Source: Vibrio sp. NTOU-M3
GTDB lineage: Bacteria; Pseudomonadota; Gammaproteobacteria; Enterobacterales; Vibrionaceae
Length of the DNA stretch: 64,000 nucleotides
Assembly (NCBI RefSeq): GCF_040869035.1
Contig: NZ_CP162100.1
Location: 2,356,001 to 2,420,000, forward strand
Direction: 5' to 3'
The number at the start of each line of letters is the position of its first letter. The stretch's first letter is position 1. Under the pieces are notes generated by a model. It did not search any database, was not told the DNA's origin, and worked only from the letters and a program-made list of their open reading frames with translations. The position numbers and the translations under genes are program-made. Of the stretch, positions 11,609 to 57,369 are shown in pieces.

Positions 11609-11811
11609 CGCAACGCAAGCCTGAACGGCTTGATTCTTATTTAGAATCAATTGGCTTTGTTGTTGCGATGTTGTGTTTGCAAACTCGAATTTCGAGTTAG
11701 GTAGGTTTCTACCACCGTTCTGTTTCACACCGAAATAGAACATATACTTCCTGTATTTATTTTGACCTGTCTGTCAAATTTTTAGCACCGCCTCTTTGGC
11801 GGTGTTTTTTT
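11609..11811 (+). ncRNA. gcvB: GcvB small regulatory RNA
   Basis: Hfq-dependent small RNA that base-pairs with many mRNAs for amino-acid and peptide transporters. Recognised by similarity to E. coli GcvB: the G/U-rich seed region R1 at about 11657-11680 (TTGCGATGTTGTGTTTGCAA), the 3' segment ACTTCCTGTA (about 11746-11755) and ACCTGTCTGTC (about 11765-11775), and the final GCACCGCC / GGCGGTG terminator with a T tract ending at 11811. Internal hairpins ACTCGAATTTCGAGT and GTAGGTTTCTAC are also in the expected order. It is divergent from gcvA, as in E. coli. The 5' end is predicted from the promoter only. Confidence 0.92.
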
Positions 11812-11845
11812 ATGCCGATTCAGTGCTACCCCACCTTTCAGATAC

Positions 11846-20723: not shown

Positions 20724-21023
20724 ATGATGACTGATTTATTTGCTATATTAGCGCTATCAATGGTTTGTTTTTTGTTTTGGCAGCAACGGCGTCAAGCTGA
20801 AATTGCGAAAAACATTGTAAACCGTAAATGTGAACAGCTTGAACTGCAAATGATCAGTATCGCTCTCAAAGCCCATAAAATAAAAACGCCAGACGGAATC
20901 TGGCGTTGGCATACAGTGTATCAATTTGAGTTTTCTTCGCTTGGAGACGATTGCTACGTCGGAGAACTCACTATGTATGGCTTTCAAGCTGGCAATTTTC
21001 ATCTGCCTCCACATCGGATGTGA
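20724..21023 (+). CDS. DUF3301 family protein
   Basis: 99-aa protein with one N-terminal membrane segment (about residues 4-19, LFAILALSMVCFLFWQ) followed by a soluble cytoplasmic domain containing IWRWHTVYQFEFSS and GELTMYGF. It belongs to DUF3301, whose function is unknown. It follows DUF3549 by 3 bp. Its last 53 bp overlap, on the opposite strand, the end of the acetyltransferase gene, so the two mRNAs have complementary 3' ends. Confidence 0.85.
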   Translation: MMTDLFAILALSMVCFLFWQQRRQAEIAKNIVNRKCEQLELQMISIALKAHKIKTPDGIWRWHTVYQFEFSSLGDDCYVGELTMYGFQAGNFHLPPHRM

Positions 21024-21489
21024 AAACAAACTCCAAAAAAGGCCCGAACGTGTCTTCATGCTCACCAACCAAAACAAAGCCCAGTTTATTAAGGATTGAG
21101 AGCGACGCAGTATGATGAGTATTTGCAGTCGCTTTGACTGTTTCTAAGTTCAGTTCCCAACATGCTCTTGAAAAGAAAGCTTTGACAGCCTCAGTACCAA
21201 GCCCTTTTCCCCAATAGGTTTTGTCAAAGAGATAACCAAGCTCTGGCGCACTGTCTATCTCTGATATAAACACATGCCCCATATATTCACGAGTTTGAAT
21301 ATCTAGCACTGCCATCGAGTAAATACTTGGGTCATTAAGAATACGCTGAAACAGTTGTTTTGCGCTGGCGACGGTATGAGGTCCATTCATTTCCGCACGA
21401 TTTTTCGCGCAGCAGTTAAGCATCAAAAAATCTGACTGTAGTGACTCACTATAAGGCACTAAAAGCGTTCTTCGAGTTACAATTGTCAT
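20971..21489 (-). CDS. GNAT family N-acetyltransferase (RimJ/RimL-like)
   Basis: Predicted acetyl-CoA-dependent N-acetyltransferase, 172 aa. The acetyl-CoA loop is recognisable in LFDKTYWGKGLGTEAVKAFF, preceded by the strand MGHVFISEID and followed by TANTHHTASLSILNKLGF, a layout typical of RimJ/RimL relatives that modify protein or small-molecule amines. The substrate is unknown. The ATG at 21489 is selected because AAGGG lies 7 bases upstream; an in-frame TTG at 21516 is less likely. A weak Fur-like box lies 108 bp upstream. Confidence 0.85.
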   Translation of the reverse strand: MTIVTRRTLLVPYSESLQSDFLMLNCCAKNRAEMNGPHTVASAKQLFQRILNDPSIYSMAVLDIQTREYMGHVFISEIDSAPELGYLFDKTYWGKGLGTEAVKAFFSRACWELNLETVKATANTHHTASLSILNKLGFVLVGEHEDTFGPFLEFVFTSDVEADENCQLESHT

Positions 21490-21596
21490 CACCATACCCT
21501 TGGTTTTGCAAATCAAATCGACTGACTAAGTGAAGGTCGAAACGTTAAACCAACTCACTATTGTATATATTGATCTGAGTATGAGTTTATTTATGT

Positions 21597-21633: not shown

Positions 21634-21665
21634 AAAGAAAAGCCCCAACATAAAAGTATGGGGCT
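21634..21665 (-). terminator. Intrinsic terminator of the CsrB-type RNA
   Basis: Seven-base-pair stem at 21659-21665 and 21641-21647 with an 11-base loop, followed on the minus strand by TTTTCTTT. Confidence 0.85.
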
Positions 21666-22036
21666 AGTAGCTTATCACATAGCATCCTGCTGATTTTACT
21701 CCATATATCCCTTACTACATTACAGTAATCTGTATATGTCTACGCCATCCCAAGCGGTGTCCCTCGCCCTCTAGTACCAACACCTTTTGCTGTCTAGAGC
21801 ACTACCTATTCCTTCAAAATAGTGGCGAAGTATTGCCCTTTACTTCTTCCTAATAAAAATCAACACGGTTTCCTGCCGTGGCTACACTATCCTTTGCCTG
21901 TCCTTCCATGTCAGCTTCCAACCAACAGGTTCTACTGTACCAATATTGCTTTTCCCAACAATATCCTTCCACTTATATCAATAGAGCAAATCATAATTAA
22001 AGAACAAGAAACCGTAAAAGATCAACAAGTTAGGGC
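21634..22036 (-). ncRNA. csrB: CsrB-family small RNA (sequesters CsrA)
   Basis: About 400-nt RNA that would bind many CsrA dimers and relieve CsrA control of metabolism, motility and quorum sensing in the VarS/VarA pathway. On the minus strand 16 GGA motifs occur between 21970 and 21685, mostly as AGGA or GGGA. Several GGAs are in hairpin loops: CACGG-CAGGAAA-CCGTG (21864-21880), ATATTG/CAATAT around TTGGGAAAAG (21943-21964), and CACTA/TAGTG (21800-21834). The RNA ends in a terminator (stem AGCCCCA / TGGGGCT, then TTTTCTTT). Which of the several Vibrio CsrB paralogues this is cannot be told here. The 5' end is inferred from a -10 element. Confidence 0.9.
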
Positions 22037-22042
22037 AAACTA

Positions 22043-22048
22043 AATATA
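22043..22048 (-). promoter_or_regulatory. Putative -10 element of the CsrB-type RNA gene
   Basis: TATATT on the minus strand with no recognisable -35 at the proper distance (AGTCTT there), which suits a promoter that needs an activator. Predicted start is near 22036. Confidence 0.5.
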
Positions 22049-22084
22049 AAAACTCTTTCGCTTAAAAGACTCCTCTCACATTCA

Positions 22085-22102
22085 AGTAAGCGATCTCTCA
22101 CA
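22085..22102 (-). promoter_or_regulatory. VarA/GacA/UvrY-type upstream activating box
   Basis: Minus-strand TGTGAGAGATCGCTTACT is a 6-6-6 arrangement matching the GacA-family consensus TGTAAG-N6-CTTACA at 10 of 12 positions. It is centred about 57 bp before the predicted start of the CsrB-type RNA. Confidence 0.65.
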
Positions 22103-22229: not shown

Positions 22230-22514
22230 ATGTTAACTAAAGATGTAACCGAAGAATTGCATGGGATAATGCAGCAACTACAAAATCAGGGAAAAGAACC
22301 GACTGTAGCTTTGGTCAAAGCAAGATTAAGTAGCAATGTGCCTATTCCAGCCCTTATTACGACGATCAAAACATGGAAAAATGCTAATCGAGTACCTAAA
22401 GTCGAAATTGCTGCAACTGAATCAAATGAAAACAACAGAATCGAAGAACTTGAAAAGAAAGTCGCGGATCTGACATCGAGGTTGATTGCATTAGAAAAGA
22501 AACTGGATAAATAA
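22230..22514 (+). CDS. Small hypothetical protein with KfrA-like N-terminus and coiled coil
   Basis: 94-aa protein I can only partly recognise. Residues 1-55 (EELHGIMQQLQNQGKEPTVALVKARL, written here in overlapping parts: EELHGIMQQLQNQ and GKEPTVALVKARL, then ALITTIKTWK) resemble the helix-turn-helix domain of KfrA-type DNA-binding proteins. Residues 69-93 (IEELEKKVADLTSRLIALEK) form a clear heptad coiled coil for dimerisation. DNA binding is inference. The gene is divergent from the CsrB-type RNA and shares its upstream region; a TATAAT at 22189-22194 may be its -10. It ends at a bidirectional terminator shared with sucD. Confidence 0.75.
   Translation: MLTKDVTEELHGIMQQLQNQGKEPTVALVKARLSSNVPIPALITTIKTWKNANRVPKVEIAATESNENNRIEELEKKVADLTSRLIALEKKLDK

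Positions 22515-57292: not shown

Positions 57293-57369
<77 letters not shown>

Follow-up and report, generated by a model that had tools for sequence, protein, structure and literature searches.

The 713-bp intergenic span between a GNAT acetyltransferase gene and a gene for a 94-aa protein raises two questions: whether it holds a gene for a CsrB-type RNA, and, if so, whether this RNA can still act as a sponge for CsrA or is decaying. The span lies in the window, by which we mean the whole 64-kb stretch of DNA that was analysed, and its length agrees with the value of about 700 bp in the first-pass annotation, which proposed a CsrB-type RNA gene under a VarA/GacA box as a complete unit. The flanking genes are as follows.

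20971-21516, minus strand: GNAT acetyltransferase gene, a syntenic neighbour found near the locus in 74 of the 80 named relatives' loci
22230-22514, plus strand: gene for the 94-aa protein, a syntenic neighbour present in 117 of 118 genomes of the genus, its own among them

The 94-aa protein has no Pfam match and is conserved throughout the genus. The gene beyond it encodes a succinyl-CoA ligase subunit (Pfam) and is taken to be sucD; since sucD lies within 3 kb of the locus in only 25 of the 80 named loci, the label 'suc-locus' was discarded, the common neighbours being the 94-aa and GNAT genes; the probabilities assigned below do not depend on sucD. The sole listed open reading frame of at least 60 aa entirely within the gap encodes 73 aa (21822-22043, plus strand). 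It had been called false beforehand, rightly so: a search of 80 Vibrio loci gave no relative (five matches, best E 4.0), and the frame was dismissed as a gene.

The Rfam model of CsrB, RF00018, describes RNAs with many GGA motifs, hairpins and a terminator. The general plan of the locus is alike, yet no match to the model was obtained at any threshold used. The covariance search that had been suggested as a check therefore turned out negative: no Csr family was found in the window at gathering scores, and none in the gap alone at E values up to 10. Applied to the genome, RF00018 found two other csrB loci (83.8 and 70.6 bits against a cut-off of 71, E = 1.6e-22 and 1.6e-18) and left the window locus unmatched. 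Elsewhere in the window, Rfam identified a GcvB sRNA at 11610-11813 on the plus strand (106.8 bits against a cut-off of 42), whose first hairpin is shortened and whose middle is changed relative to the model, and a tRNA gene at 57296-57369 on the minus strand (RF00005, 66.9 bits).

Upstream of the presumed RNA, the following elements were recognized.

22085-22102, minus strand: VarA/UvrY box TGTGAGAGATCGCTTACT, identical to the family consensus at 16 of 18 positions
22075-22080, minus strand: second TGTGAG half-site, conserved in the family by alignment with 81 orthologs
22020-22032, minus strand: IHF-like site that departs from the consensus at one position; weak, as chance should give about 92 matches as good per 64 kb
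21934-21939, minus strand: -10-like TACAGT (TAAATT in the family), without a clear -35, by ortholog alignment

The 6-6-6 box TGTGAG-N6-CTTACT of the first-pass annotation is thus present, and it is the only site in the 64-kb window with three mismatches or fewer (0.05 expected). A box pattern derived from the genome's own three csrB boxes, TGTNNGAGATCNCNNAC, has just three sites in the 4.86-Mb genome, ahead of the two canonical csrB genes and here, and its reversed control has 0 sites genome-wide; at the two other csrB genes the pattern can be read on both strands. The distance from the box to the 94-aa gene is 127 nt, compared with mostly 67-90 nt in the equivalent gap of relatives. The position of the IHF-like site (22032-22020) matches that of a similar conserved block of csrB orthologs in the alignment; the one-mismatch scan was too unspecific for use.

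The equivalent gap was then compared among relatives. A box-like site lay 69-79 nt from the 94-aa gene in 28 of 29 fetched loci, with 17-26 GGA motifs in the densest 300 nt; the sole exception, locus L009, has a box of 15/18 whose first base is changed, and was missed by the pattern. Among the 78 of 80 named loci that could be scored by length, 72 had at least 16 GGA in 300 nt, and 71 had this together with a box of at least 14/18. A profile reaching from box to terminator, built from 81 distinct intact copies (93 loci), matched the window at 22102-21869 (51.0 bits, E = 1e-15) and 21764-21633 (19.7 bits, E = 3e-6), and nowhere else in the 64 kb at E values up to 10. A profile of the RNA only scored at least 147 bits in 100 of 107 relatives' loci (94 distinct upstream sequences), a result that is partly by construction because 93 of the 107 (81 distinct) had built the profile, and in which some species are present twice. 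By this RNA-only profile, the two other csrB genes of the genome, which are not in the profile, scored 330 and 216 bits, intact orthologs 231 or more, and the window RNA 27.1. Pairwise global identity with loose gaps was abandoned, as shuffled letters scored 0.74.

The position in relatives, the ortholog profile and the box found at three places genome-wide together indicate that the gap holds the third csrB-type locus of the genome, strongly diverged. Together with the orthologous first hairpin described below, this evidence outweighs the failed covariance test, and the proposal of a CsrB-type RNA gene under a VarA/GacA box is borne out. The locus has the conserved neighbours and the orientation of the Vibrio csrB gap, descends from the csrB orthologs of this gap according to the profile matches, and carries upstream the VarA/UvrY/GacA box and at its end the intrinsic terminator of CsrB/Rsm-type RNAs; the genome also contains csrA (one match) and varA (433 bits against a cut-off of 280, the reading frame being whole and open to its stop). 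Judged by these comparisons, the window copy is a csrB ortholog by descent and position, and it is not filed as a member of RF00018.

The extent of the RNA was estimated from the start of its relatives. V. cholerae has three Csr RNAs under VarA, CsrB, CsrC and CsrD, with a predicted box TGTGCGAGATCTCTTACA at about -177. The full-length promoter fragments described there have their 5' ends at -197 or -196, 20 nt ahead of the predicted box, and their 3' ends at +3, so the first base of the box lies about 177 nt before the start (PMC6550530). Applied here, this spacing gives a start at 21925, and the first hairpin of the family begins at 21927 by ortholog alignment. A start at 21925-21927 leads to the following RNA.

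21634-21927, minus strand: predicted csrB-type RNA of about 294 nt with 12 GGA, from the orthologous start, the V. cholerae box-to-start distance, the profile matches and the GGA count

The start at 22036 assumed in the first-pass annotation is not supported by the same two measures, and its transcript of about 400 nt (22036-21634) shortens to about 294 nt (21927-21634); the inferred start is preceded by the -10-like TACAGT at 21939-21934. The 16 GGA motifs placed in less than 300 bases also need correction: sixteen require 22102-21634 (469 nt), the densest 300 nt contain 15, and since three of these precede the inferred start, the RNA itself has 12 (4.1 per 100 nt). This excess is modest compared with shuffles of the RNA's own letters (12 reached by 184 of 5000 mononucleotide and 55 of 2000 dinucleotide shuffles) and clear compared with the surroundings, where none of 1294 overlapping segments of equal length on both strands reached 12 (maximum 10). 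An origin as chance GGA-rich intergenic DNA, or as a small protein gene in the form of the 73-aa frame on the plus strand, would fit the modest excess over shuffles and the missing Rfam match, but is hardly credible given the position, the profile matches, the genome-wide rarity of the box and the csrB descent, and given that the frame has no relative in 80 loci.

In the minus strand, five hairpins with GGA in the loop were found.

21909-21927, minus strand: hairpin H1, GGA in the loop, orthologous to the first hairpin of the family (alignment, covariation, local folding)
21864-21880, minus strand: hairpin H2, CACGG-CAGGAAA-CCGTG, close to where the family has its second hairpin, the stem being different; the two were matched by eye from spacing
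21837-21859, minus strand: local hairpin with AGGA in the loop, G-U pairs included (local folding)
21800-21824, minus strand: local hairpin with AAGGA in the loop, G-U pairs included (local folding)
21752-21769, minus strand: local hairpin with GGGA in the loop, containing the conserved GGACACCGCT (local folding, alignment)

H1 retains six pairs, one of them via a change from C-G to U-G, and the hairpin at 21752-21769 overlaps a second small GGA hairpin, CGCU-UGGGAU-GGCG, of 4 pairs. The two 5' hairpins show covariation, with a score that none of 500 shuffles reached in a chosen subset of 28 distinct rows. The alignment consisted of the window and 28 of 53 distinct extracted orthologs, more divergent ones including L111 (V. 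mimicus) being excluded, and the second hairpin of the window was out of register and counted as unpaired, so that hairpin 1 alone is supported for the window. Three hairpins presenting GGA had been reported at the outset; the number of such loops varies with the rules of folding. With G-U pairs allowed, local folding places 5 of the 12 GGAs (42%; median of intact orthologs, 43%) in loops above a stem of five or more pairs, Watson-Crick pairs alone give 1 of 12 with a 5-pair stem, and the best global fold has 3 of 12 in hairpin loops. Global folding energy was dropped as proof, because it is not special (z = -1.27; 31 of 200 shuffles equally good).

The local hairpins were evaluated by a measure of our own, chosen after the sequence had been inspected and tried at several settings. 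In shuffles that kept the GGAs fixed, 22 of 2000 reached the loop fraction of the window and 1 of 2000 its mean stem length. Of 80 window segments with at least 6 GGAs, one matched the mean stem and eight the fraction; among 32 trinucleotides GGA ranked second in mean stem, GAA (7 occurrences) being first. When G-U pairs were disallowed, depending on the setting 20 to 81 of 1000 shuffles reached the mean stem and 25 to 85 the fraction, showing that the signal of GGA-hairpin preservation leans on G-U pairs.

At the 3' end, a terminator hairpin followed by a T tail was found where it had been annotated.

21634-21665, minus strand: intrinsic terminator, hairpin 21665-21641 of -13.0 kcal/mol followed by a T-rich tail (folding)

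It is weaker than the terminators of all 30 intact copies measured (of 81), which had -17.1 or better, and stronger than those of three other loci considered below (L009, -9.8; L101, -1.4; L109, none).

Intact Vibrio csrB genes in the equivalent gap (L007, L008, L036 and others) have the 94-aa gene beside them and lie on the same strand as the window copy, with which the intact orthologs share the VarA box, the box-to-start distance, the first hairpin TGT..GGA..ACA, the GGACACCGCT block and the AGCCCC/GGGGCT terminator. The window copy differs in that the middle section is lost, the stem of the second hairpin is different, and length and GGA content are reduced to 294 nt and 12, compared with medians of 407 nt and 27 in intact orthologs, which were picked by a box and at least 20 GGA per 300 nt so that their GGA minimum is partly by construction. 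Against these medians its length is down by over a quarter and its GGA number by more than half, and the description as a complete unit is not supported. As in V. cholerae, where CsrB, CsrC and CsrD carry 28, 23 and 23 GGA (PMC6550530), the genome has three Csr RNA loci, and the present copy has 12 GGA; Nguyen et al. describe vibrios as generally having three copies, most of them in conserved synteny groups (PMC6262261). A reduced Csr RNA next to fuller siblings, with conserved upstream sequence, is also described in Pseudoalteromonas fuliginea (PMC11882849): Pf3 has 9 GGA, its promoter is active, it bound CsrA in vitro and it raised glycogen in E. coli. The activity of Pf3 was shown experimentally, and that of the window copy is predicted from sequence; since Pf3 with 9 GGA bound CsrA and affected glycogen, 12 GGA can suffice (PMC11882849).

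Whether the window copy works was evaluated against neutral simulations, which combined a simple model of substitutions and indels with one deletion. GGA density was reached by 30 of 180 simulations that had decayed to an equal profile score under the tighter match and by 76 of 331 under the looser one, and is therefore not above neutral decay; being also weak against shuffles, GGA number alone was set aside as proof. The GGA hairpins, the box and the terminator are better preserved than the simulations would leave them: the fraction of GGAs in loops averaged 15% in matched simulations and the window's value was reached by 28 of 1105, the box of 16/18 was reached by 12 of 1105, and the terminator energy by 4 of 400, the last at one fixed divergence (0.43) that was not score-matched. 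The promoter profile score was reached by 31 of 1105 simulations, and box and promoter score jointly by 4. In profile, alignment and simulations alike, the promoter and both ends are better kept than the middle, as might be expected if a different sRNA had been derived from csrB that retained the VarA-controlled promoter and no longer acted as a CsrA sponge. We regard this as very improbable, because the share of GGAs in local loops is like that of intact csrB RNAs and nearly half of the GGA number persists.

The main rival is a csrB gene in decay, of the same descent, in which selection is gone and the box, hairpins and terminator are what is left before the gene disappears. It is in keeping with the low profile score and a GGA density such as neutral decay predicts, with the weakened terminator, with the two other csrB genes retained by the genome, and with the state of the gap in relatives, where 7 of the 107 scored loci have no copy or a broken one. 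The RNA-only profile scored 0 in six of these (L087, L093, L097, L101, L107, L109) and 13.7 in L009. Three of them look like csrB remnants: in L101 the RNA and terminator are gone, and what is left is a 17/18 box with a vestige of hairpin 1; L109 has a box of 17/18 without RNA or terminator; and L009 has, besides its box, a trace of the RNA with 33% of its 6 GGAs in such local loops, and a weak terminator. To judge by these remnants, some lineages are losing the csrB of this gap, and the window copy could represent an earlier stage of the loss seen in L101, L109 and L009. Since L101 and L109 hold boxes of 17/18 without an RNA, a kept box proves little, and box retention alone was rejected as proof. 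Against decay stand the GGA-in-loop hairpins, box and terminator in excess of the simulations, and the weaker or missing terminators of the three remnants. Taken together, decay is a real but lesser possibility.

Two further arrangements were observed in relatives. L093 and L097, which have no csrB in the gap by profile, share another similar stretch, AGGAAATAGCCATTAAGGATGATAGACGAATGGATTCA plus part upstream. In genome G003, contig 1 carries two CsrB matches 2.3 kb apart (2473201-2473513 and 2475506-2475818), the nearer one within 1 kb of the 94-aa homolog, a possible local duplication.

A DNA search for a close relative of the window version gave one other short match among 61 genomes, and no close relative among 227 genomes (own included), in which eight other matches of 30-60 nt were found. 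Three of these coincide with the box and four with the terminator, L122 among the latter being a csrB; the eighth, in L118, falls within the middle of the RNA, has no profile match and looks like chance.

Weighing these results, we consider it reasonably probable that the window copy is a working but weaker CsrA sponge, and favour this over a decaying relic. For this RNA we infer transcription, binding of VarA and binding of CsrA. Phosphorylated VarA would bind the box, some 177 nt ahead of the start, and switch on transcription from the -10 without a -35, and the RNA would end at its own terminator. Its GGA-loop hairpins and single-stranded GGAs would capture CsrA dimers and reduce the amount of free CsrA, together with the RNAs of the two canonical csrB copies, the window copy being a weaker sponge with fewer sites that may be maintained by structure rather than by sequence. 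More tentatively, and with considerable doubt, it may be a functional csrB RNA: turnover would have affected most of its sequence and over half of its binding sites, with the GGA-in-loop rate, the box and the terminator preserved. If so, selection would act on presented sites and not on sequence, and the copy would be a low-capacity third sponge with a role of its own.

This type of RNA is well known, and the window copy is a divergent representative that the standard model does not recognize; a limited literature search brought up no description of an eroded csrB in this position. A standard RNA model can miss diverged Csr RNA genes, and counts of Csr RNAs per genome can consequently be too low; position and the VarA box can find a diverged csrB copy. 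With intact, eroded, relic and absent copies within one genus, this gap provides a natural series on how many GGA sites are needed and on the loss of redundant copies.
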